Source: Bartonella gabonensis
GTDB lineage: Bacteria > Pseudomonadota > Alphaproteobacteria > Rhizobiales > Rhizobiaceae
Reading direction: 5' to 3'
Assembly: GCF_903679515.1 (NCBI RefSeq)
Contig: NZ_CAHOYM010000017.1
Span: 1 to 36,041 of the forward strand
Length of the DNA stretch: 36,041 bases
Shown: one piece after another, positions 2,127-15,198 of the stretch
How the letters are laid out: every line of letters starts with the position of its first letter
Numbering within the stretch: the first letter of the stretch is position 1
Translations under genes and position numbers: made by a program
Notes under the pieces: generated by a model
Seen by the model: only the letters and a program-made list of their open reading frames with translations
Told to the model about the DNA's origin: nothing
The model's database searches: none

Positions 2127-2440
2127 GACCAAGCACACACCCCTAACATACAGTTACACGTTTTTACGATTTTGCTTATTCACAGAAAACAGCAACGAGC
2201 TAATAATCATCAGAAGACTATTGATCATCCCCCTTCAAACAAAGGCAAACGTAAAATGAAATCAACAACGTATGGCACCATACCCCTTACGGCCCCTCAA
2301 AACCATGAAGCAATGGTATGATCTAAAAGAATGCCTCCATGCCATGAGTCCTATACGCACTTTTTCAGCGCTGCGTTTAATTGCCGCGTAACCTTATAAT
2401 ACGATATCAAACGCTTGATAAAAGAAATATACAGGGCCAC
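2127..2440. repeat. Direct repeat copy 2 (partner 1644-1940)
   Basis: Second copy of the repeat. It overlaps the 3' end of the small membrane-protein remnant at 2351-2526. The block between the copies (about 1945-2125) is pyrimidine-rich and shows no convincing gene. The 137-codon plus-strand ORF across it (1846-2259) looks like chance. Confidence 0.6.
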
Positions 2441-2526
2441 AATGGGTATTGTTAAAAACAAATCAAAAAGCCCCCCAGCAGAATCATCAAAAACACCGTG
2501 GCAGCTGCTGCCATCTCGTTATGCAT
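2351..2526 (-). pseudogene. Array membrane protein unit 9, frameshifted N-part
   Basis: ATG at 2526 follows AAGGGAGAAG. It encodes MHNEMAAAATVF and a hydrophobic segment, then stops after 24 codons. One base over, the reading continues LTIPIVALYISFIKRLISYY and then KVTRQLNAALKKCV before a TAG at 2351. This matches the first membrane segment plus basic neck of the other array members (IKRxRLxxxVKKELKxxL). The shift lies in a short T-run near 2454. No second half follows. It was not reported as a normal ORF because each piece is short. Confidence 0.6.
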
Positions 2527-2541
2527 TTTATCTTCTCCCTT

Positions 2542-3123
2542 TTATAAATTGATCGATTGGGGTGCTTTAGTCACTTCTTCCAATTGCTGAATCTTCTTTT
2601 TTAGCCGTGAGGTTAAAATTTCACGAAGGATGACAATAACAGGAACTGATGCCAAAATACATATCAATAAAACAACAAAATAAAAAAAGAAAATGGACAT
2701 AGAGATAAATCTCTTTTCATCCATATCAACATTCACCTGGTTATAAAAAGTCACATAGACATAAACTTTGAAAACCATAAGGATGAAAGAGAGGCATGCG
2801 TGGATGACATAATCTTTATTGGAAAAAGAGAGCCATTTTTTTAACGAATGAGAACTTATCTTTGTGTCCAGCGCTAAATTTTGCTGCACGACCTCTTTAA
2901 GGCTTTTTTTAGAGAAACAAAAATGCTGCGGCTGTTCTTTTATCAAACGTCTCTGCTTCTTCACTTTGAAAATGAGCCTCAACCGCTTGATTAAACAATA
3001 ATAAGACGCCACAATGATCATATTGACAAAAATGGCAAAAACCATCACGGTCTCTACAAAAAAACAGCCCAACGGCAGAAAAAAAATAAAAAGTGCAACC
3101 ACCTCTTTTCTCATGGCCATCAT
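2542..3123 (-). CDS. Array membrane protein unit 8, intact
   Basis: Unrecognised 193-residue membrane protein and one of the two complete members of the array. Order: membrane segment at residues 8-45, basic neck YYCLIKRLRLIFKVKKQRR (about 41-60), a linker ending LKKWLSFSNKDYVIHA (about 94-109), second membrane segment (about 110-128), third (about 143-169), then a basic coiled-coil tail SRLKKKIQQLEEVTK. No signal peptidase site or enzymatic motif is visible. The start ATG at 3123 lies one base after the TGA of the upstream unit, so the two are probably co-transcribed. Function unknown; the plan would suit an oligomeric inner-membrane protein with both ends cytoplasmic or a small immunity-type protein, but neither is shown. 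Confidence 0.7.
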   Translation of the reverse strand: MMAMRKEVVALFIFFLPLGCFFVETVMVFAIFVNMIIVASYYCLIKRLRLIFKVKKQRRLIKEQPQHFCFSKKSLKEVVQQNLALDTKISSHSLKKWLSFSNKDYVIHACLSFILMVFKVYVYVTFYNQVNVDMDEKRFISMSIFFFYFVVLLICILASVPVIVILREILTSRLKKKIQQLEEVTKAPQSINL

Positions 3124-3124
3124 C

Positions 3125-3412
3125 TCACCGATTGATCTTTAGCAACTTTGTTTCTTCTTCCAGTTTTTGTCTTATTTTTTCCAATTTGCGCTCTTTAAAA
3201 TGACGAAGCCCCCAAAGGATTGGAAGCGGAGTCAGAATACAAAACCAAATCAATACCGGTAACAGAAAAATAAGAGAACCAATTTCCTCCCATCTTGTCC
3301 ACTGCAACGGCTCTACCAAAGGTTTCGCACCCGCAGGGATTTCTAAAGCCATCATGATAAGGCCCGTGTAAAACATTGTGCAAAACATGATAAAAAAGGA
3401 TCGCCCAATCAT
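3125..3412 (-). CDS. Array membrane protein unit 7, short form
   Basis: 95 residues with two membrane segments (about 6-25 and 43-70) and a charged tail ERKLEKIRQKLEEETKLLK, equal to the C-terminal half of the array family. The N-terminal membrane segment and neck are missing, and the DY linker is reduced to IGRSFFIMF. A good ribosome site (AGAAAGG, seven bases) precedes ATG 3412, so it may still be translated as a short protein. The stop is followed directly by the next unit at 3123. Function unknown. Confidence 0.55.
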   Translation of the reverse strand: MIGRSFFIMFCTMFYTGLIMMALEIPAGAKPLVEPLQWTRWEEIGSLIFLLPVLIWFCILTPLPILWGLRHFKERKLEKIRQKLEEETKLLKINR

Positions 3413-3590
3413 TTTATACCTTTCTCCCCTTTATAGCTTATCCCTGAAGATACTGTAGATTTTTTAAATGAAAAGAAAGTCTCTTCAACTGTTACGTTTT
3501 TCTCCTGCATTGATTCCCTCTGTTTTTTTATTTTTACGCGCTATTTTAAGGTTCAAGCGCTCTTTAATTTATCTAAACTATTTATTTTTC

Positions 3591-4738
3591 TCAATAATTT
3601 TTTTCATCAATCCCAATTTCTACATCCATATATCTTACTTCCCCGTCCTTGATATAAAGAATATGCGGACGAGCTTTTTTTCCATCAACCTCACAAATCG
3701 TATCCTTTTCATAAACCGTATATCCCTGTTGTCTTAATTCTTCTCGCTTCTCCTCGATCAAATTTTCGTAAACAAAGCGTCTTCTATTGCACAAATTTGG
3801 ATCTGTCGCTCTAAAATAGTCATAACTCTCCACCTCGACGGAATAAGTCTTTGCCGCCTGTTGAAGTAAATCGTAACTAGGCTGCTTTGCCTTTTCTACT
3901 GCTTGAGCGATCACTATCGCGCGTTCCAGATGTTCTTCTTTAATGCTTGTCTCAAAACCCAGTCTCTCACCTTCCATAAAGCTTTTGTGATAAGCATGTA
4001 AAATTTCAACATCACCCAGCAAGGCTAGAACGGCAAGATAGCGCAGCGAATAAAGCGTTAACCGAGGATCAGCAACTTTGAGTTCTCAAGGAAGGGTGCG
4101 ATATTGAGAGCGAAGCATATCGCCAAGATCAACATTGCCCATGGCCTTTTCTAAAGTTTTCTCAAGTGCATAGCGTAAACACCCCGCGCTTACCTTTTCT
4201 TCAAAAATTTCCAATCCCTTCAGATCAAAACTCAATTCGAGAGCAATCAAGCCTCCAGAATTATAAGGATCTATGGTTTGGCAAGCTGCCGCATGAATAC
4301 CAGAAACCACCGCAATGGCACAATCAAATTGCGGATACTCTTTCTCAGCATTATAAAGAAACTGTACTTCACGATCTGGTAAAAAGAAGGTTGCCAAATG
4401 ATCCCCTTTTTCGTCAATTTCTATCCTTCCCCCCAACTCTTTAAAAGCGCCGTTGCACTTTCCATCGTGACAATTTCCTCATCAGAAAAAGAAAATGCCT
4501 TAAACTCTTTTTCTTCAAATGACGGCTTCATCATTGCTGTTTCCCCAAGCGTCTCAAAGGCAACCGATTGTTCAAGAACGCGCCTTAATTCTTTTGTCAC
4601 TTGGCAATATAATCTCACGCGCTTGAAAGTAGAATAATACAATGCCCAAATAAAAATCATACACACAGCAGAAAGCAGCGTGAAGAGAAGCAAGCCTGAA
4701 CCCCATGAGAATAGGACAACGATATCTATATCTCTCAT
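3591..4738 (-). pseudogene. Array membrane protein unit 6 fused to an unknown soluble domain, two lesions
   Basis: Three ORFs are one ancestral gene of about 382 codons. Piece 1 (4738-4421) has a first membrane segment, the array neck FKRVRLYCQVTKELRRVLEQ and then an acidic stretch ending LLKSWGEG*. Adding one base to the G6 run at 4429-4434 continues it as LLKSWGGRIEIDEKGDHLAT. Piece 2 (4436-4086) then ends at an in-frame TGA (4086-4088). The same frame continues ELKVADPRLTLYSLRYLAVL into piece 3, ending at 3591. So this unit has the family N-terminus but, instead of two more membrane segments, a large mixed alpha/beta-looking domain that I do not recognise. It contains two Cys (SGIHAAACQT, SAGCLRY) and a charged C-terminal half. 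Two independent lesions favour a pseudogene. Confidence 0.65.
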
Positions 4739-4751
4739 TTTCCCCTCTCCT

Positions 4752-5113
4752 TTATGCGCTTGTTTGTCGATACGACGCCGCTATCCGCTTCCAAATTGTT
4801 TGCTCCAACTGAGCAATCTTTTTTTCAACAAATACGTAAAAATAATACGGACAACAAAAACAATAGGGATCAATATAAAAATTAAATCTAATATAAACAG
4901 CAGGATAAAAAAGAGAACAGCCGCAACATCGGCTTCCCACCCTGTCAACTTCCACCCAAGCAGCAATGGGATGAAGAGAGCCGTTCTTAAAGCTGCAAGA
5001 ATGAACGTCATACAAAAGATGACTTTATAATTTTTTCTTGTTAGAAATGCTTTTTCCAAAGAAAAAGCCCGTGACTCCTGATCCGATATTGAATTCCCCC
5101 CATTGTGCTTCAT
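4752..5113 (-). pseudogene. Array membrane protein unit 5, C-part with 3' frameshift
   Basis: ATG 5113 begins MKHNGGNSISDQESRAF, followed by the family linker FSLEKAFLTRKNYKVIFCM and two membrane segments (residues about 36-60 and 65-98). As it stands the ORF ends at 4781 with LLKKRLLSWSKQFGSG. Adding one A to the A7 run near 4825 gives LLKKKIAQLEQTIWKR and a stop at 4752, which matches the coiled-coil tails of the other members. The lesion removes only the tail, so a truncated product is possible. No N-terminal neck ORF precedes it. Confidence 0.6.
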
Positions 5114-5238
5114 TGTTTATCCCTCATTGATCTAAAACTTAATCTATTCACACGATTGCCCACTTTCTATTTCACGATTGCCCAATTGTGAAGCTTTGGC
5201 TCTAAAATTCTGAGTGCTTTTTATTTTCCGAAATTAAG

Positions 5239-5274
5239 CCCCTTCTTTCTTAAAGACCCCTTCTTTCTTAAAGA
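5239..5274. repeat. 18-bp tandem repeat, two units
   Basis: CCCCTTCTTTCTTAAAGA occurs twice head to tail in the gap between array units 4 and 5. On the minus strand the units read TCTTTAAGAAAGAAGGGG. No gene lies in 5114-5294. Confidence 0.7.
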
Positions 5275-5294
5275 AAAGTCAAAGCCCCCCCTCT

Positions 5295-5627
5295 TCATTT
5301 TTCTCCTTCATTTTCATGATAAAAGATTATCGAAGCTTTTTTCTGCTCAACCTTTTCTTCCAGGTGCCAGATCATTTTCTTCAATTGATGGGTTACGATA
5401 AACAGCATGATAAAAACAATGGGTAAGAATAAAAAAGTACAGGCAAGAATCCATGCCAGTGGCTCTAATATAGACATAGAAAATAAGTCCTTACCCTTCC
5501 ATATCTTCACGATAACAGCGATCACTGTCGGAAATGTCACCATGACGATCGAAAGAGTGAATATTCTTTTATAGTCAGCCCAAACAAGAGAAAGTTGCTC
5601 TTTATCAAACACGCTGCCACTTTTCAT
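5295..5627 (-). CDS. Array membrane protein unit 4, C-part
   Basis: 110 residues: short polar start, linker KEQLSLVWADYKRIFTLS (the family LxLxxxDYxxIF motif), two membrane segments (about 25-43 and 55-80), and tail HQLKKMIWHLEEKVEQKK. Its ATG overlaps the TGA of the preceding neck ORF (5624-5816) in an ATGA arrangement. The two halves may therefore be translationally coupled, or a once-single gene may have been split by a shift at this A-rich junction. No separate Shine-Dalgarno is seen. Function unknown. Confidence 0.6.
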   Translation of the reverse strand: MKSGSVFDKEQLSLVWADYKRIFTLSIVMVTFPTVIAVIVKIWKGKDLFSMSILEPLAWILACTFLFLPIVFIMLFIVTHQLKKMIWHLEEKVEQKKASIIFYHENEGEK

Positions 5628-5816
5628 TTTTGGGAAATCTGTTTTAATGTACTATCGCGTTCATTCAGCACACATTTCAGCTCTTTTTTCACGCGGCAAT
5701 AAAGCCGCGCACGCTTGATAAACCGATAATAAATGACAACAATGGGCACCCATACTAAGGCATTTAAGAACGTAAATAACAGAATAGATGATTAATGTTA
5801 TAAGACTAATGGTCAT
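5624..5816 (-). pseudogene. Array membrane protein unit 4, N-part, frameshifted
   Basis: ATG 5816 sits behind GGGGGAG and reads MTISLITLIIYSVIYVL. Removing one A from AAA near 5762 continues it as NALVWVPIVVIYYRFIKRAR and then LYCRVKKELKCVLNERD, ending at the TGA overlapping the ATG at 5627. This is the family's first membrane segment and basic neck. In its current state the frame ends early, so the neck is probably not made. Confidence 0.6.
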
Positions 5817-5830
5817 TTTATCTCCCCCTG

Positions 5831-6421
5831 CTATTTTTCATTTTGTGCATTCTGCATACGGATTGCCTGATCGCGCTGTTTGATCGCTTCATCCAACTTT
5901 GGAAGCGTTTCTTTTAATTTTCTGGTTAATTTTATGCTCATCATTGCAATGATGGGAACAACGAGCAGAATTCCTAACCATATCAAGTTCAAGATCAGCA
6001 TGATAAAGACAATGCTATCACTCTTCCACCATACCAAATTTATGTTAGAAAAAGTAATTTGTAGAAGAAAAATAAGAATAAAGACAAAAAAGATTATTTT
6101 CCATTCTTTTGCATAAAGGAGCAGAGACTCTTTAAAATCAAGCAAGCGCATTTTTGCATCAAGGGTCTTATGTGCAAGATTCTGTCTTTTCATTTCTTCG
6201 CAGTCATTGCGCAACTGTTGTATGGCTTGCTTTTGTTGCGTCGTATTCTTTTTCAATTCTTGAGCGAGTTTAAAGGACACCCTCATATGCTTGACCAACA
6301 GGTAAGGAAGCCTGATAATGACCATAAACATTAAAATGGTAATGATGATGATCCCTAAAAGAGCCAAATATTTCATCATAACACTCTTTTTTTCTCTATT
6401 GCCTTGAAATGAAATCATCAT
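5831..6421 (-). CDS. Array membrane protein unit 3, intact
   Basis: Second complete member of the array. I chose the ATG at 6421 because AGAAAG lies six bases upstream; an internal MMKYLALLG start at 6379 is an alternative, and the frame stays open back to a TTG at 6442. Order: membrane segment LLGIIIITILMFMVIIRL, neck LVKHMRVSFKLAQELKK, a Gln/Lys-rich coiled coil of about 45 residues, linker FKESLLLYAKEWKIIFF, two membrane segments, and tail TRKLKETLPKLDEAIKQRD. The upstream unit ends at 6435, so the units are packed as an operon. Unknown function. The long predicted coiled coils before and after the membrane hairpin suggest self-association. Confidence 0.65.
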   Translation of the reverse strand: MMISFQGNREKKSVMMKYLALLGIIIITILMFMVIIRLPYLLVKHMRVSFKLAQELKKNTTQQKQAIQQLRNDCEEMKRQNLAHKTLDAKMRLLDFKESLLLYAKEWKIIFFVFILIFLLQITFSNINLVWWKSDSIVFIMLILNLIWLGILLVVPIIAMMSIKLTRKLKETLPKLDEAIKQRDQAIRMQNAQNEK

Positions 6422-6434
6422 TTTTACTTTCTGC

Positions 6435-6984
6435 TCAAGCAAATGTTTCTAATTTCTTCACTGTTTTTTTCACGCCACACTGAAGGAGACTATAGAGAAT
6501 TAAAACGATAGGCAAAGCCACCACAATACACGACCAGACCCAAAACAGCAGCTGCACGACAAAGTCAATAACGTAAAGCAATAGAGGCGCATGATTGTGC
6601 AAAAAAATCGCAGATTTTGGGAGAAACGCCGCAAAAGCGATAAAACCTACGAAAAGCACCAACATAACGAAAGTGATCGAAAAAAGCATTCGATACTCTT
6701 CTCTTGAAAGTTCCAAAGATTTTTTAAAAGAAAGAGCACTGAAAGGTGTTGCAAGAGCTGTATTCTGTCCTCTACCCTCTGTCTGATAATGCTCTAAATT
6801 CTGCATTGCACTCTTTTTGAGTTTTCGCCGCATTTTCAATAACAAGACTGTCCATTTTATCAAAGAATAATTAAAGTGCCAAGACAATCTTCGCGGTAGA
6901 AAAGAGTACCGAAAGCAATGCAACACAAATAAAGATAGTGCCCCCTAGGCCTATCAACCATCCAATGATTAAAGAAGTGCTCAC
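6435..6984 (-). pseudogene. Array membrane protein unit 2, frameshifted after first membrane segment
   Basis: A GTG at 6984 with a strong AGGGGGGA site four bases upstream encodes MSTSLIIGWLIGLGGTIFIC and continues to LAL*. One frame over, the reading resumes NYSLIKWTVLLLKMRRKLKK, then linker LSFKKSLELSREEYRMLFSI, two membrane segments, and tail GVKKTVKKLETFA ending at 6435. The break is near 6871. The ORF starting at 6926 could still give a product lacking the first membrane segment, but its first 17 residues are out-of-frame sequence. Confidence 0.6.
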
Positions 6985-6994
6985 ACGTTCCCCC

Positions 6995-7487
6995 CTATAG
7001 TCTTGTGTTGAGAGATTGGTTATCGAAAGGTTGCTGCTCTGACACTGTTTCCCATTGCTGCATCATTTCCTTCACATCCCGTTTCACCATGGCAAGAAAA
7101 ATAGAAAAGAGTGGAAAAAAACACAAAAAGACTACCAAAAATCATTGACGGGATAAAACATACAAAAGTCCAAACACTCTTCCACTCCCCATCAGGCAAT
7201 TGTTCAATGATAGGATTTTTAAGACTTTCTCGCATCGCTTCTTGAAAATTTTGTTGCTGCATTTCTTGCAGCTGTTCTTTAGAAATTTGAAAAATTTCCC
7301 AAGGCTTCATATAGACAGTCGCAGCAAAAAGCACCAATAAGAGGATAGCCAAGCAAAAAATGATGACATAATCCTTTGTGGAGAGAACCATCTGCTTTTT
7401 AAAAGCGGCCGATTGATCCAACACGGACTGTGAGACAAAAGCCTTCCCCTTACAGCTAGATGGCTGTTGTGATTGTTCTCTGATCAT
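6995..7487 (-). pseudogene. Array membrane protein unit 1, 3' frameshift in T7
   Basis: ATG 7487 follows AGGGG at eight bases. Residues about 28-50 carry the family linker FKKQMVLSTKDYVIIFCLAI and the second membrane segment, then a loop of about 50 residues rich in Gln/Glu and a third segment. The current frame ends at 7020 in Cys/His-rich sequence unlike the family. Removing one T from the T7 run near 7125 restores LFSIFLAMVKRDVKEMMQQW and a stop at 6995, the expected basic coiled-coil tail. This is the first unit of the array as transcribed. A neck-type N-part was not found upstream. Confidence 0.6.
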
Positions 7488-9396
7488 ACGAATAGCCCCT
7501 CACATCTTAAATACCCACGCTTCAATATTTGATAACACACGGTCCAGCGTGGTGCGGCTCTTTAGCACTCTTTTTACCATAAAGAAAGCACTAATCATTC
7601 CTTATTAAATGTTTTTAAATTTCTTAAATACCTGACAACAAACACGCTCTCAACACTTATAAATCCAAACACCTCTTTTCCCTCTTGATTGATCACTCAA
7701 CCCTAAAGGACACTGTTTCTAGCCCCCCAACAAGCAAAACTATTCAATTAAAAAAACATCCTCTGTGGAAATTTTACAGCTCCCCCTTCCCTCAAACCGT
7801 ACGGATAACCCCAGTCATTTTCAACAATGCCGGTTGAATGCCACCGCTTTAACCCCGCCTCAACAATCCTTTAAAGATACAGCAAAGGTCAAGAAACGGA
7901 CAACACCTTGATTGATAAAAAGTGTTCACTATTTTACAGGCTAAATGAGAACCCATGGGGAGCGTAAGATTATCCCGTTTTAAATCTGTTCCATAGTCAA
8001 TCAACCCCAATAATTTCTCTTACCCATAACGAGTAGAGAGAGCTTATGGGTAGCGTGAGAATACAAGTAAAGATATATCCTTTTCATAAAGAGTTCCAAA
8101 AGCGGTAAAATGAGGGAGGGGTAGCAAATTTAAAGGAAGTGTCGGCTTACTCTTTTTATGAAACCTAAAGATGAGAGGACATGGTAGAGACGGCATAGGA
8201 AGTTTTATACTCTTCATCAAAGAGCTCCTTTTATCCTTCACGGACACCGTCACGAAATTGGGCTCAAAAACTTTAAAAACATGCCTCTTTCAAACAAATC
8301 CGTAAATGAGCAGTGCCAAGGTATGTGGTTTTAGGGTATTGGATTTGGAGCGCTCTGTTTGGAAGGAGCACGCCCCCATAAAGGAACAAAAGCAACAAAA
8401 ACATGAGACAATAAGCCCCCCAATGTACTGACAGCATTCTAAAAATTTTTCTCATTTTTAAATTTATTCAATTAAGAAGAAATATCTCATATCTCTCAAG
8501 TCCTCCAGCTTTATAAAAGCCTCTCTTCATAAACACCCTTTAGGAATCTTCTTATAAAGCTTCTTTGGATATTGCATCACGCCATTAAAACGATATCCTC
8601 CCTTTTCATACTCATCCCCCAAACAGCAAAAGAATTTCTATACTTTATAAAGGAGATATAAGGGCAGCAAAAAAACCAGATCATTTGATCCTTCACAATT
8701 TATTTTGAGCCAACAAACGATATTTTAATTGAAAATAGAGAGCATTTTATGCTATAATGATAAGAGTGGATAAGTTTGTTTTACATTGTTCACTTCCCCT
8801 TCATCGTCTAAAATATCCTTTATAAAGGATTATAAAAAGAATAAGATAGGCTTAAACAGCACGATGGAAATCAGGCATCTTGATCCATCGTTCAAGAACA
8901 AAAACCTCCCCCCCCAATAAGAAAACCCAAGAGTAAACCAATGCCTTTTCAAAGGAAGAATTGAAAAATTTCTACAAAGTGCTCGTAAGAAAAAAGCCAA
9001 ACAGCTTATGAGAAAATCAGGGGAGACAACCACAGAGAGCTTTATTTTCTCATTCACGTTTTGTCACATTTGACAAAATTTTTTTCACTTTTTCCAGAGA
9101 CGTTGAGAAATCTATAGACAGCAAATCATTGGCTATTGATACGCAAAAGATAAAGATAAGCATGATGGGGGATACAATAAAAATGCTAGAAAATATCTTA
9201 AAGATATTTTTTTACGCCACAACATTGCTGTTCTTTACGCTTCAGGACTTTGTTTTTTTGCTCTGCAACAGCTCATAGCCGCACAATATTTTCTCTCCCA
9301 ATATTTTTCTCTCCCTCGCCAGTATTATCTCCAAGTGTTTTTTACAATCCCTGTCCCCAAACAGCAGATAGTTTATTTCATTCAAATGGTAAGTTC
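7488..9396. other. Long gene-poor stretch
   Basis: No convincing gene in 1.9 kb. Two minus-strand ORFs (8273-8455, a 60-codon single-membrane-segment frame, and 8830-9057, 75 codons) lack good ribosome sites and family motifs, and I do not call them. The block 7951-8010 is a copy of a dispersed repeat. An inverted repeat TTTTGTCA-CATT-TGACAAAA at 9059-9078 is followed by a T-run and could be a weak terminator or operator. Confidence 0.5.
7951..8010 (+). repeat. Dispersed intergenic repeat, leading block, copy D
   Basis: CATGGGGAGCGTAAGATTAT through TAAATCTGTTCCATAGTCAA resembles the leading block at 20163-20220. A partial second copy, TATGGGTAGCGTGAGAATAC, begins near 8045. Confidence 0.4.
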
Positions 9397-9966
9397 ATGA
9401 AAATAGGTAAAAAACGCGGAAGACCGAAAATAACAGGCAAACTCAGAGAGCCCAATAGCCGTATTTCCCGTGCCAAAGGCTCTCGCAAATCGGCACCTCA
9501 AACAGCAATTGAAATGCGTGCAAAACGCTTTGGTTTAAGCCTTGAAGAAGCGAAAAATCCACTTGTGGGAACCTATATTGGGCGCCTTTGTTTGCTTGGC
9601 TATAAAGGAGATCCATCCGGCATCAGTAAAGAGCAATATGATACAGCGCAACAATACTTGCAAATCAGAAACGACTTTTTATGTGCCAAAGGTTTACCAA
9701 ACGGCTATTATGACGGCTTTAAGCATAGCACATCTGATGAGAAAGCAAAAAAGCAATGGGTTGAAAGAGCAACACAACACTATGAAGCGATGCAAGAAGC
9801 GATTAAAGAAGCACAATATCTGCATCGTCAACACAATTTTCATGCGGCATTACAATATCTTGTTAGTGAAGATCAGCCACTGCCACACCTTGTTGGCTCA
9901 CTGCGCCTTATTCTTGATGCCCTGTATAAACATTTTGACTGTTCCAGCCAAAAGAGCATTCGCTAA
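9397..9966 (+). CDS. Phage-type protein, possibly terminase small subunit-like
   Basis: 189 residues from ATG 9397; the frame is open back to 9250, but the upstream 49 codons are low-complexity and unlike coding sequence. It begins KIGKKRGRPKITGKLREPNS, a basic AT-hook-like (KRGRP) tail, followed by a helical domain (AIEMRAKRFGLSLEEAK, TYIGRLCLLG, ISKEQYDTAQQYLQIRN). I recall proteins with this order in rhizobial prophage-type clusters next to packaging genes, but no large terminase or capsid gene lies nearby. The DNA-binding role is inferred from the basic start. It stands alone between non-coding stretches, so it may be a survivor of a degraded prophage or gene-transfer-agent island. Confidence 0.6.
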   Translation: MKIGKKRGRPKITGKLREPNSRISRAKGSRKSAPQTAIEMRAKRFGLSLEEAKNPLVGTYIGRLCLLGYKGDPSGISKEQYDTAQQYLQIRNDFLCAKGLPNGYYDGFKHSTSDEKAKKQWVERATQHYEAMQEAIKEAQYLHRQHNFHAALQYLVSEDQPLPHLVGSLRLILDALYKHFDCSSQKSIR

Positions 9967-11417: not shown

Positions 11418-12371
11418 ATGATGAAACCACAAGCTTCAAAAGACGCCTCCCCTCGTTACTCACCAACACAAGAAGGGGCAAGTGCACCAGAAGATCCGAG
11501 CGCAGATGCGTCCTTAGAAAATCTTGCGTCACATTTAGAACGGCTCAATATCGAAAAAATACAAAATACCCCCTTCAACCGTGCGGAATTAAGAGATATC
11601 ATTGCAGGCTTAGAAAAGCATAATGCCGATGGAAGTTGGATCAAAAATTATTATGATATTTTAGATCTTTACATGATGCCGGCTTTAGTAGAACAGGCAA
11701 ACCGTAAATATCCAGAGATGAATCTTAAACTGACAATCCCCCCTGAAGGCTTTGCCCTTGCGCTCAAAGAAACACTCGAGAAAGGTATCAAATCTTCCAG
11801 ATTTATTGTTAATGCGCAAGATAGGGGCATTCATTTTGCGGTTGTTGACCATCAAACGGTTGATGGCAAAACATCTTTGATTTTTTTAGAGCCGACCTCA
11901 CTGCGAGACACGCTTCCGGCATTACTCGCATTAAGGACACGGCAATCCCTTGAATATCAGCAATTTCCTCCTATTCATTTTGCCACGGCGGAAATGAATA
12001 TTCAACGCAGTTCCTCTGAATGTGGAATGTTTAGCTTAAGCCTTGCCAAAAAGCTTTACCTTGAATCTCAAAAATTAGAAAGACTGCACCAAGATAATAT
12101 TAAAGGCATAGTATGTGAACGTGGCACACCTTTACCGGCTGAAAAGTTAGATCCCTATCTTCCCGCTCGTTTATACAAACACGTGCAAGGGAGAAGACGT
12201 CTTGGAGAATATCTAAAATCAAATCCAGAAGCAGCCCATGAAACAGTCAACAAAAAAGGTGAAACGCTTGCCGAAAGATTTGAAAGAAGCTTAGTAGCCA
12301 CAGAGAGAAAAATGGTCTCAATTTCACAACATAGGAAAAGAGCAACGGAATACAAATCTCTGATGATGTAA
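11418..12371 (+). CDS. YopJ-family serine/threonine acetyltransferase effector, copy 1
   Basis: 317 residues. The YopJ/AvrRxv family (peptidase clan CE, C55) comprises effectors injected into host cells, where they acetylate Ser/Thr/Lys of kinases and blunt MAPK and NF-kB signalling, with inositol hexakisphosphate as activator. The triad is visible: His139 in GIHFAVVDHQ, Glu158 in LIFLEPTS, Cys202 in DIQ/NIQRSSSECGMFSLSLAKK. The C-terminal region (LPAEKLDPYLPARLYKHVQG; NKKGETLAERF; KRATEYKSLMM) also follows Yersinia YopJ closely. The first 50 residues are polar and low-complexity, as expected for a secretion signal. ATG 11418 follows AGAAAGG; a second ATG is adjacent. No type III secretion or BID domain is present, so the export route is open. 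Copy 2 lies 1,309 bases downstream. Confidence 0.9.
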   Translation: MMKPQASKDASPRYSPTQEGASAPEDPSADASLENLASHLERLNIEKIQNTPFNRAELRDIIAGLEKHNADGSWIKNYYDILDLYMMPALVEQANRKYPEMNLKLTIPPEGFALALKETLEKGIKSSRFIVNAQDRGIHFAVVDHQTVDGKTSLIFLEPTSLRDTLPALLALRTRQSLEYQQFPPIHFATAEMNIQRSSSECGMFSLSLAKKLYLESQKLERLHQDNIKGIVCERGTPLPAEKLDPYLPARLYKHVQGRRRLGEYLKSNPEAAHETVNKKGETLAERFERSLVATERKMVSISQHRKRATEYKSLMM

Positions 12372-12726: not shown

Positions 12727-13674
12727 ATGATGAAACCACAAGCTTCAAAAGACGATTCTACTCGTTTATCACCAACACAAGAAGGGGCAAGTGCACAAGA
12801 AGATCCGAATAAATCCTTAGAAAGCCTTATTGCCCGTTTAGTGCAAACTTCCCTTCAAAAAGAAGAAGAAAATGTCGCCCCTCATTCTGAAGAATTAAAA
12901 GCGATTATTGCTGGCTTAGAAGATGATCTCGTCACAGGCCGTTGGCTCAATACTTATTGTGGAGATACCGATATTAGGCTCATGCCTGCTCTCGTCGAAA
13001 AAGCAAATCACAAATATCCGGAAATGAATCTGAAATTAGCTCTTACAGCAGAAGATCTTACCCACGCCATAAAAGAAACAATCAAAAGCGGCGCAAAATC
13101 TTCTCGATTTATCGTCAACATAGGGAGCAGAATTCATTTTGCGGTTGTTGATCATCAAACGGTTGATGACAAACTCTCTTTCATCATGTTTGAACCGACA
13201 ACATTCCATAATATCACTGCTTGTAGACTAGGGATAAAAATCGATCAAACCCTTGCAAGTCTTCAACTACCTCCTTATTCTTTTGCCATGGCTGAAATGG
13301 ATATTCAGCGAAGCTCTTCTGAATGCGGGATTTTTAGTTTGAGCCTCGCCAAAAAGCTTCATCTTGAATCTGATAAATTAACAAGAGTGCACCAAGATAA
13401 TGTTCAAGGTGTATTATGTGAACCAAATGCTCCTTTACCGATTGAAAAGTTGGATACCTATCTTCCAACCAGTTTTTATAAACACGCACAGGGGAGAAGA
13501 CATCTAGAACAATATTTAAAAGCCAATCCAGAAGCAGCGCATGAAAAAGTCAACAAAAAAGGTGAAACTTTAACCGAAAGATTTGAAAAAAACTTAAATG
13601 AAAAAGAGGAAAAAATCGTCTCTGTTTCCCCACACCAAAAAAGGATCAAGGAATACAAATCTTTGATGATGTAA
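12727..13674 (+). CDS. YopJ-family serine/threonine acetyltransferase effector, copy 2
   Basis: 315 residues, a diverged tandem paralogue of the gene at 11418. Same start (MMKPQASKD, SPTQEGASA) and the same ribosome site. Triad His137 (RIHFAVVDHQ), Glu156 (IMFEPTT) and Cys200 (MDIQRSSSECGIFSLSLAKK) are all kept. Differences concentrate in residues 30-90 and around 160-180, which in this family shape substrate choice, so the copies may have different host targets; that is inference. The tail NKKGETLTERFEKN and KRIKEYKSLMM matches YopJ. Both copies are full length without lesions, unlike much of the surrounding accessory DNA, which argues for selection. Confidence 0.9.
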   Translation: MMKPQASKDDSTRLSPTQEGASAQEDPNKSLESLIARLVQTSLQKEEENVAPHSEELKAIIAGLEDDLVTGRWLNTYCGDTDIRLMPALVEKANHKYPEMNLKLALTAEDLTHAIKETIKSGAKSSRFIVNIGSRIHFAVVDHQTVDDKLSFIMFEPTTFHNITACRLGIKIDQTLASLQLPPYSFAMAEMDIQRSSSECGIFSLSLAKKLHLESDKLTRVHQDNVQGVLCEPNAPLPIEKLDTYLPTSFYKHAQGRRHLEQYLKANPEAAHEKVNKKGETLTERFEKNLNEKEEKIVSVSPHQKRIKEYKSLMM

Positions 13675-14302
13675 TTGAAGACTTTTTTCCCATATCCCCC
13701 TCATAAAGAACAAAACAACACTGCTTTACGGCTCAAATTGCTCTCAAGCAGAGCGGTTCCTCTTAAAACTGTATCAAAATTCCAAAGCTTCTTTTCTCGC
13801 CCAAAGTCGTGTTCACCCAAAGTCTTGTTTACAATGCCCCTATTTGGATATGCGAAACGCTGGATCGATAAAATTAAAATATTGAATGCTTTTCAATTTC
13901 AATCAAAGCCTATACCCACGGCTGTTTTTGTCAACGTATCGCTTTATCTTATAAGCGCCTTCATGCCATACGGTCAAACAAAATCGCGATGAAGCACGCT
14001 TATCGTCCATCAGCCCAACAGCTTCCCGCCCCCACAAAACGCCATCAAAAAAAACCAGCATACGGAGGAAACCTCAAGATAAAAACCAAACCATCTGCCA
14101 AAGGCAAATACCACCAACCATTCCCCCACTTGGAATATCTCCAGTAGAAATCCCCTTGGGATATCCACTGGAGATACCATGATTAACCTTTTTATTTCAT
14201 CAAAGTTTTACGTCTCTTCTATTTTTGAAGCGTGAAAAAATTCATTTTTAATCTGTCGACCAGCCTCACATAACTGTGAGACTTTATTTTATGGAGAAGC
14301 AA
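13675..14302 (+). other. Non-coding trailer and leader
   Basis: The first 90 bases repeat the trailer of yopJ copy 1. The 105-codon ORF here (13675-13992) has no ribosome site and covers this repeat, so I reject it. Around 14130-14180 an imperfect inverted repeat (GGAATATCTCCAGTAGAAAT / ATATCCACTGGAGATACC) is visible upstream of the lysis genes. Confidence 0.5.
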
Positions 14303-14965
14303 ATGAGAAAAATATCATCAGAAGGGCTTGCACTCATTAAACAATGGGAAGGATTGCGTTTACAAGCCTATAAAGATGCCATAGGAGTTTGGACAATCGG
14401 CTATGGTCATACCAGCACGGCTGGCAAACCGTTTGTTTACAAGGGCATGATCATCACAGAAAAACAAGCCGAAGAAGTTCTTTCTCAAGATTTAAGACAA
14501 TTTGAGAATGCGGTTGAAAAAAATGTGACGGTTTCTTTAACAGATGAACAATTCGCCGCGCTGGTATCGTTTTGCTATAATGTAGGCATAGCGGCTTTTT
14601 GCAAGTCAACTCTGCTCAAAAAACTCAATAACAGCGAATATGAAGCCATCCCTTCTGAATTACAAAAGTGGACCAAAGCGAGGGGAAAACGTCTTTACGG
14701 TCTTGTCCACCGTCGTGCAGCAGAAGCGGGATTATGGGCAAAAGGGGCTTATGTTTCTCCCAATTATCAAACTGTTGAAACAAAAGCACCGATGGGTTTT
14801 CTCAAAGCAGAAGCCCTCACCCCCATTATTGGTTCTTTTTCTGGACTTGGAGGCTTATTGGCCGGCAATGGTCCCATCCAATGGGCTTTGGCAACCATCA
14901 TGGTTTTAGCCGCCTGTTTTGGTATTTTCTTTGTGGCAAAACGCTCTCGGGAGCAACGTTTATGA
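14303..14965 (+). CDS. Phage-type lysozyme (endolysin), GH24-like, with C-terminal membrane segment
   Basis: 220 residues. Cuts the glycan strand of peptidoglycan during phage-type lysis. The GH24 (T4-lysozyme/RrrD-like) active-site block is clear: the catalytic Glu in KQWEGLRLQAYKD, then Asp, then GVWTIGYGHTST carrying Thr. Typical SFCYNVG and LYGLVHRRAAE blocks follow. Residues 170-220 add a Gly-rich stretch and one membrane segment (ALATIMVLAACFGIFFVAK), ending RSREQRL. I chose ATG 14303 because GGAG lies six bases upstream; upstream in-frame starts (GTG 14276, ATG 14291) lack this. The stop overlaps the next start (ATGA). First gene of a four-gene lysis cassette. Confidence 0.85.
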   Translation: MRKISSEGLALIKQWEGLRLQAYKDAIGVWTIGYGHTSTAGKPFVYKGMIITEKQAEEVLSQDLRQFENAVEKNVTVSLTDEQFAALVSFCYNVGIAAFCKSTLLKKLNNSEYEAIPSELQKWTKARGKRLYGLVHRRAAEAGLWAKGAYVSPNYQTVETKAPMGFLKAEALTPIIGSFSGLGGLLAGNGPIQWALATIMVLAACFGIFFVAKRSREQRL

Positions 14966-15198
14966 TAGGGTGGCTGAAAAAAAATTTAATGATAACCGGA
15001 GCGGCTATGACCGCTTTTTTTATTGCTTTAACAAAAGCTTTTACGCTTGGAAAGAAGCTTGAACAGCAAAAGCAACTAGAAAAAATACTAAAGTCATCAA
15101 CAACACGGCTAGAGGTGGAAAATGAAATTAATCAAAAAAGTGATGCCGATGTGCGCGCTGCTCTTGACAACTGGTTGCGTCATAAAAACAATCCATGA
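14962..15198 (+). CDS. Inner-membrane spanin (Rz-like) subunit
   Basis: 78 residues from the ATG that overlaps the lysozyme stop. One N-terminal membrane segment (LMITGAAMTAFFIALTKAF), then a charged coiled coil (GKKLEQQKQLEKILKSSTTR) and the ending DADVRAALDNWLRHKNNP. This plan (N-in anchor, periplasmic coiled coil, DADVRxxLxxW-type end) is that of i-spanins in rhizobial prophages. With the o-spanin it would fuse inner and outer membranes in the last lysis step. The 3' third overlaps the lipoprotein gene at 15122 in another frame, the classic Rz/Rz1 layout. Confidence 0.7.
   Translation: MIGWLKKNLMITGAAMTAFFIALTKAFTLGKKLEQQKQLEKILKSSTTRLEVENEINQKSDADVRAALDNWLRHKNNP

Follow-up and report, generated by a model that had tools for sequence, protein, structure and literature searches.

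A tandem array of alternating membrane modules with a tethered DUF6990 domain in Bartonella gabonensis, a candidate membrane-held immunity locus

Contig NZ_CAHOYM010000017.1 of Bartonella gabonensis (assembly GCF_903679515.1) was analyzed over positions 1 to 36,041 (36,041 nucleotides; hereafter, the window), and its minus strand carries, between 2351 and 7499, a tandem array of ten small membrane-protein genes. Two modules make up most of the array: module A is one membrane helix with a basic neck, and module B is a linker with a DYxxIF stretch, two membrane helices, and a basic tail. One gene joins A to a third domain, D, that matches DUF6990 (PF22499). We tentatively interpret the array as a set of Bartonella inner-membrane proteins of alternating B and A modules with a tethered CdiI-type domain, which may form a membrane-held immunity complex related to contact-dependent inhibition (CDI).

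Genes of the array and their relatedness

The array comprises the following features (window coordinates, all on the minus strand), given from its first gene onward.

7023..7499, minus strand: B1, the first gene, with linker, two helices with a long outer loop, and tail; broken
6427..6984, minus strand: AB2, A then B, with helix 1 and the remainder in different frames; broken
5831..6442, minus strand: AB3, intact A-B protein of 203 aa with three membrane helices
5624..5837, minus strand: A4, helix and basic neck, first residues out of frame; broken
5295..5651, minus strand: B4, intact B protein, start at 5627 (111 of 114 residues aligned, 77%)
4781..5116, minus strand: B6, B protein, start at 5113, open across the linker and both helices
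4421..4780, minus strand: A part of the A-D gene, helix and neck, after which the frame is lost (frame -2, 4403-4753)
3591..4478, minus strand: D portion of the A-D gene, comprising DUF6990 and the start of a CdiA-type nuclease domain; broken
3125..3540, minus strand: B7, B protein, first residues out of frame (frame -3, 3370-3528; frame -2, 3128-3421); broken
2542..3123, minus strand: AB8, intact A-B protein of 193 aa (193 of 193 residues aligned, 78%)
2351..2541, minus strand: A9, terminal A module, first residues out of frame; broken

Reading frames in the window were taken as they stand, with none repaired. Compared to their orthologues, AB3 (aligned over all 182 orthologue residues at 81% identity), B4, and AB8 are fully open, and B1, AB2, A4, A-D, B7, and A9 shift frame, A-D also carrying a stop. 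Orthologue residues 8-139 of B1 are found in frame -1 down to 7104 and its tail in frame -2 (6998-7297), and AB2 runs in frame -3 from 6984 and in frame -1 over 6869-6483, within open reading frames (ORFs) 6871-7062 and 6435-6944. The two short A genes retain only part of the orthologue in one frame, namely residues 19-72 of 72 at 5627-5788 for A4 (ORFs 5661-5837 and 5624-5791) and residues 23-61 at 2360-2476 for A9 (ORFs 2452-2541 and 2351-2518). The D part changes frame at its start and has a stop near 4086. B6, in which 102 of 110 orthologue residues align (68%), is followed by a tail-like stretch in another frame (4752-5024) and is possibly shifted near its end. An initial annotation of this DNA, made from the letters alone, had described at least eight units; compared to orthologues, only three of the ten genes are fully intact, six being interrupted by a frame shift or a stop and a seventh, B6, apparently having its tail in another frame. 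Judged from the sequence, either decay or assembly error may account for these losses.

That annotation also described related units in tandem on one strand, which single-sequence queries, independent of any trained model, bear out. Within its own genome, the unit at 5834-6442 matched 2539-3048 (E 3.7e-7), and the unit at 2545-3123 matched 5876-6352 (E 1.5e-6) and 6432-6872 (E 1.7e-6). A 35-row profile found 11 matches in the source genome (eight on the window contig, two on contig C38, and one on C61), and an iterated model, trained in part on the window's own units, recovered ten ORFs of the window with E-values from 2e-4 to 2e-59. By these alignments, the array units are one family, related beyond chance. 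The proposed plan of helix, neck, linker, two helices, and tail describes the intact fused proteins AB8 (2542-3123) and AB3 (5831-6442), but the repeat itself is B then A (see below), and a run of such units only overlooks the A module, DUF6990, and partial nuclease domain at 3591-4780.

The absence of a named family was upheld: no convincing match was found for the units scanned against Pfam, PHROGs, NCBIfam, PADLOC, and PDB. Among 35 A-B proteins, the best Pfam match was to an ABC transporter membrane region (E 9.8e-5, one member only), and NCBIfam gave, far below cut-off, MAG1210 for a B-A protein (E 3.3e-4). PDB held nothing convincing for A-B proteins (best TspO, E 0.047), DUF6990, or the nuclease (Rhs protein, E 0.031). 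Among 297 genomes of the bacterial family, a single weak match outside the genus was found (genome G347, E 1.5e-4; genomes and loci are given by our own labels). No description of the array was found in the open-access literature searched, in which the name DUF6990 also gave no match.

Several phage-related identities were considered and set aside. Single queries did not find the family in phage, viral, or plasmid collections, with no match in 50,697 phage records for one unit and none in IMG/VR for one group. These results, together with the lack of a PADLOC match, leave the phage-exclusion role that had been suggested, and anti-phage defense in general, without support. On the single-query results a phage origin was likewise set aside, although the neighboring K, endolysin, and spanin genes (described below) match phage families. 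A phage lysis protein (holin or spanin) was rejected as well, the best Rz-like match being E 0.023 for one unit only.

Module order, topology, and age

Array genes across the genus are of the types B, A-B, A, B-A, or A-D. Module order was counted in the window and 34 loci, leaving out D and dropping runs with fewer than three A/B modules, and 52 runs remained. In these, 484 of 546 adjacent A/B pairs alternate, compared to a mean of 294 (sd 11, maximum 331) in 2000 shuffles. All but one of the runs (51) open with B and 48 close with A or D, showing that the repeat is B-A and that A-B proteins are fusions that bridge two repeats. The idea that A and B are copies of a single module was dropped, with profile comparison yielding a 23-column match only.

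Exactly three helices are present in 28 of 32 aligned A-B proteins. Next to the helices, lysine and arginine residues average 0.8 ahead of helix 1, 6.3 across the neck and linker, 1.5 within the loop, and 3.8 within the tail, a distribution of positive charge that places the neck and tail in the cytoplasm. A topology computed from hydropathy and charge predicts the same location for the neck, the tail, and D. The outer loop has a mean length of 18.5 residues in 28 A-B sequences (B1, with its longer loop, lies outside this mean). Pairwise identity in the AB3 group is 58-59% for the neck and tail, 58% for the first membrane helix, 48% for the loop, 37-41% for the second and third helices, and 40% for the outer N-terminus. 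Because the neck and tail are more conserved than the second and third helices, this pattern was counted against surface exposure, which the initial annotation had raised and which is unlikely for A-B proteins given the predicted cytoplasmic parts and the short loop. A surface antigen family is likewise not supported by the loop length and the ratios of nonsynonymous to synonymous substitutions (dN/dS) given below.

Array relatives occur in 39 and 40 of 71 genus genomes in two query searches, with G022, G023, and G032 included by weak matches. In 21 of 24 loci from named records and in 33 of 39 loci of a second, genome-overlapping set, the array contains the core B, A-B, A-B, A. The three named-record loci without it are a fragmented B. 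vinsonii locus and two satellite loci (B-A pairs at a different site, see below); at least four of the 39 loci in the second set are satellites as well. The array of G026 is rearranged on both strands. Array flanks often end at the length of sequence fetched.

A module's best match seldom lies in its own locus (11 of 299 cases for B and 4 of 263 for A), implying that most duplications predate the species. In agreement, a tree places the window's B modules (seven passed the length filter) in seven separate clades with supports of 0.748 to 0.998, clades being picked by a mostly-one-per-locus rule. The best-match counts and the tree rule out recent tandem duplication, and the recent expansion under an arms race that had been proposed for this locus is not borne out. 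As pairwise averages, dN/dS values lie at 0.39-0.76 in A-B proteins (eight pairs) and at 0.17-0.31 in A-D proteins (three pairs); values of 0.17-0.76 in these 11 pairs speak against pervasive positive selection and are still compatible with site-specific selection. The units are thus old, distinct, and constrained yet fast-evolving, with purifying selection on average, and the array is inherited mainly vertically at one chromosomal site.

The DUF6990 domain and contact-dependent inhibition

The gene at 3591-4780 encodes A followed by D; orthologues that are intact have one continuous frame of about 390 aa. A-D genes occur at one or two places per array. The intact A-D protein of locus L063 matches DUF6990 at E 1.8e-16 (61 bits; cut-off 27), and the two window D pieces, searched apart, match at E 1.6e-6 (28.6 bits) and 0.1 (13 bits). 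DUF6990 is present in 36 of the 71 genus genomes and is also found three or four times over within single proteins of about 600-900 aa. Ten loci encoding such multi-repeat proteins were chosen from a longer list and read. These fha loci (L131-L138, L140, and L141) contain chains of toxin cassettes, SUKH relatives, and a multi-repeat DUF6990 protein in a CDI-like arrangement. In six of the ten, the DUF6990 frame opens 0-6 bases after the stop of a toxin C-terminus (a 118-aa fragment in L141). In the other four, it follows a SUKH relative, with a gap of about 260 bases and toxin fragments only nearby in L138. For example, L131 encodes an exoprotein with TPS, DUF637, and PT-VENN domains, four DUF6990 repeats, a PT-VENN-LHH cassette, and a SUKH gene, with more SUKH and toxin relatives behind.

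The toxin end bears an RPD...ExK pattern, which we take to be that of a PD-(D/E)XK-like fold. The nuclease relation of D was established on intact orthologues: all 24 array A-D C-termini tested (18 loci) match the first part of the toxin profile, the worst at E 9e-6, with E-values that come from a very small search set. The toxin part mostly terminates no more than about 10 residues from the ExK position; one copy stops short of it, and RPH replaces RPD in many. The association extends to Sinorhizobium: in S. meliloti Ak57, the gene for a CdiA-like protein whose end matches the same nuclease profile overlaps DUF6990 by four bases, and a replicon of S. meliloti USDA1021 has the same CdiA-DUF6990 order, with the nuclease recognized by eye. 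In G407, which belongs to a different family within the order, consecutive genes encode a PT-VENN protein, then Imm11, then DUF6990. In a phylogenetic tree, 21 D domains from arrays form a group with repeat 4 of the CDI-locus protein (support 0.864). Given its position directly behind CdiA/FHA toxins with this nuclease in both Bartonella and Sinorhizobium, DUF6990 is probably their CdiI-type immunity protein, and the initial guess of an immunity role for the array gains support from this domain.

One protein (L092:5675-6979, on the same contig as L127:11659-12963) has the order A-(partial D)-B, with D lying within the linker between A and B.

Candidate functions and chromosomal surroundings

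Among known systems, polyimmunity loci are the closest in layout. As described in passages of PMC3482391, these share with the array distant paralogues in tandem on one strand, the lack of full toxin genes between them, and a CDI immunity-type domain; array genes are also closely spaced, and the toxin part is found only fused in A-D. The array differs in its alternating membrane modules, in a core order common across species (its downstream part is variable), and in an immunity domain that is tethered to the membrane and fused to a toxin part. The fha-locus protein, with its three or four DUF6990 repeats, has the features of polyimmunity proteins as given in the same passages. With the layout of a polyimmunity locus, without its variability, and with main modules that match no immunity family, the array was classed as a variant rather than a member. 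It is best read, with some reservation, as a membrane-anchored relative of CDI polyimmunity loci, in which the roles of A and B are putative.

Two other groups of CDI proteins are comparable. CdiA-CT/CdiI pairs with PD-(D/E)XK-type nucleases, as treated in parts of PMC9086364, resemble the fha loci in that DUF6990 lies directly behind CdiA C-termini with an RPD...ExK nuclease-like domain; in the array, by contrast, DUF6990 precedes a shortened toxin part and an A module anchors both. The membrane CdiI proteins for ionophore toxins (passages of PMC11630599), Imm-CdiI, and Imm17 (passages of PMC3482391) are small and hydrophobic with two helices as in B, but no sequence relation to them was found, and the basic necks and tails belong to the array.

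Under the membrane-anchored reading, A and B subunits would assemble into an inner-membrane complex via their basic, coiled-coil-like necks and tails. This complex would position immunity domains on the cytoplasmic side, the point at which CdiA toxins come out past the inner membrane, which they cross with the aid of integral membrane proteins according to passages in PMC11630599 and PMC9086364. There it would capture the incoming nuclease, with the toxin part as an assembly or decoy piece, or block its entry, much as two-helix immunity proteins are proposed to stop uptake at the membrane (passages of PMC3482391). Protection from the toxins of neighbors would hold even in cells without such a toxin. 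A more specific version, in which a vertically inherited inner-membrane machine of about ten paralogous subunits keeps a hybrid of immunity domain and toxin fragment where contact-delivered nucleases reach the cytoplasm, and traps them there as a membrane-anchored decoy and not as a free cytosolic antitoxin, is speculative and rather doubtful. Taken together, the findings suggest, and do not prove, membrane-based immunity between bacteria, organized as a membrane complex. They provide a testable function for DUF6990 and link a membrane-protein family without a database name to CDI in a genus of intracellular pathogens, in which the loci of FHA, discussed as a host-interaction factor, also hold pre-toxin, nuclease, and immunity cassettes in the cases read.

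Co-occurrence was tabulated for array genomes (n = 40: DUF6990 35, YopJ 35, PT-VENN 22, toxin match 14) and array-less genomes (n = 31: DUF6990 1, YopJ 6, PT-VENN 1, toxin match 0), where the toxin match relies on one query sequence and the presence counts are confounded by shared ancestry, which alone could give the pattern. An intact A-D gene was found in 18 of the 35 genomes sampled for loci, six of which have neither a PT-VENN nor a toxin match; one of these six (G065) holds the multi-repeat locus with toxin fragments (L138). An intact A-D gene with neither match fits an orphan immunity gene or another function.

Beyond this confounding, a number of observations weigh against a membrane-held immunity complex. 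Five of the 40 array genomes lack a DUF6990 match, and in G016 and G038 the array is a D-less core of B, A-B, A-B, A only, which means that D is dispensable for the core and that the core is either a remnant or serves a separate role. No A or B modules were found in the ten fha/CDI loci searched with the array models, and no family match links A or B to two-helix immunity proteins. The toxin end in G407 did not match the nuclease profile used here, and DUF6990 in F. blasticum, G1089, and G941 (a weak match) had no CDI neighbor in the stretches read. The YopJ genes beside the array are also unaccounted for. Owing to the D-less core and the absence of A and B from the ten CDI loci, we regard the immunity complex as plausible and short of probable.

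It is also quite possible that A and B form an ordinary inner-membrane complex for housekeeping or host adaptation (a scaffold, channel, or envelope organizer), with DUF6990 captured once from a CDI locus as a passenger. The persistence of the core quartet without D in G016 and G038 and the orthology of positions across species, as for fixed subunits of one machine, are consistent with this view. So is the satellite B-A pair, which lies beside a secreted-type coiled-coil protein at another site in six loci (L084, L095, L096, L102, L128, and L130). However, D is kept behind A under purifying selection that is stronger than in the tested A-B pairs, also in genomes free of toxin matches. The satellite locus is present in the source genome on C38, near genes that are presumably dapB and gpmA, and its coiled-coil protein, B, and A are possibly the ancestral unit of the array.

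Alternatively, the A/B units themselves could act as small immunity proteins in the membrane that counter ionophore or membrane-entry CDI toxins, making the array a homogeneous polyimmunity locus with D as one member. B has two helices, as do Imm-CdiI and Imm17, proteins that may prevent uptake at the membrane, and the paralogues are distant and in one orientation; both features would fit this model (passages of PMC3482391 in both cases). No immunity family was matched, however, and polyimmunity loci vary even between strains (same passages), in contrast to the core order retained in 21 of 24 named-record loci; no ionophore toxin was seen beside array units, though no search was aimed at one. 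We therefore consider this model unlikely.

The chromosomal surroundings are themselves conserved, as the following plus-strand features of the window illustrate.

9250..9966, plus strand: K, a phage-family gene (phrog_15385), conserved array border in divergent orientation
11418..12371 and 12727..13674, plus strand: two YopJ-family acetyltransferase genes, conserved neighbors beyond K
14276..15198, plus strand: endolysin with a C-terminal hydrophobic segment and an Rz-like spanin gene, conserved beside YopJ, also without the array

The order K, YopJ genes, endolysin, and Rz-like spanin borders the array on the K side. The opposite border has a phrog_21451 relative in 13 array loci and, in a larger number, a small conserved gene. 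Both window YopJ proteins match PF03421 (E about 2e-70), and the first also matches the NCBIfam YopJ/AvrA subfamily (E 1.9e-129); 41 of 71 genus genomes contain this family, with up to nine matches per genome. An array that serves these neighbors, perhaps as a complex for membrane docking or export, would explain why YopJ lies beyond K in 19 of 24 named-record loci (the remainder being short or satellite loci) and why 35 of 40 array genomes also contain YopJ. Such a role is improbable: six array-less genomes have YopJ, five array genomes do not, and G001 (L146) keeps the K-YopJ-endolysin block without an array, with about 3.5 kb separating the two borders. Equally improbable is a decaying locus without present function in this strain and with only historical conservation elsewhere. 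In its favor, at least six of ten window genes are broken and many D copies in other species are fragments, but outside this strain orthologous units evolve under purifying selection, AB3, B4, and AB8 in the window are fully intact, and assembly errors are a possible cause of the frame changes.

The K family occurs in 64 of 71 genomes, often in multiple copies, and K itself gave no match in the phage records searched; the KKRGRP stretch of K is presumably an AT-hook-like motif. A promoter and terminator scan found 16 and 7 sites compared to 14.6 and 5.4 expected. In B. grahamii, islands BgGI 3 and BgGI 6 are labelled 'membrane proteins', and BgGI 3 is described as specific to the rodent-associated lineage (PMC2697382). 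They may correspond to this array, which they resemble in holding membrane proteins; the passages available from that article give no family, module, or function for them. Short tandem-repeat reading frames are present near array ends in three species (L063:252-560, L067:18890-19216, and L071:15499-15998).

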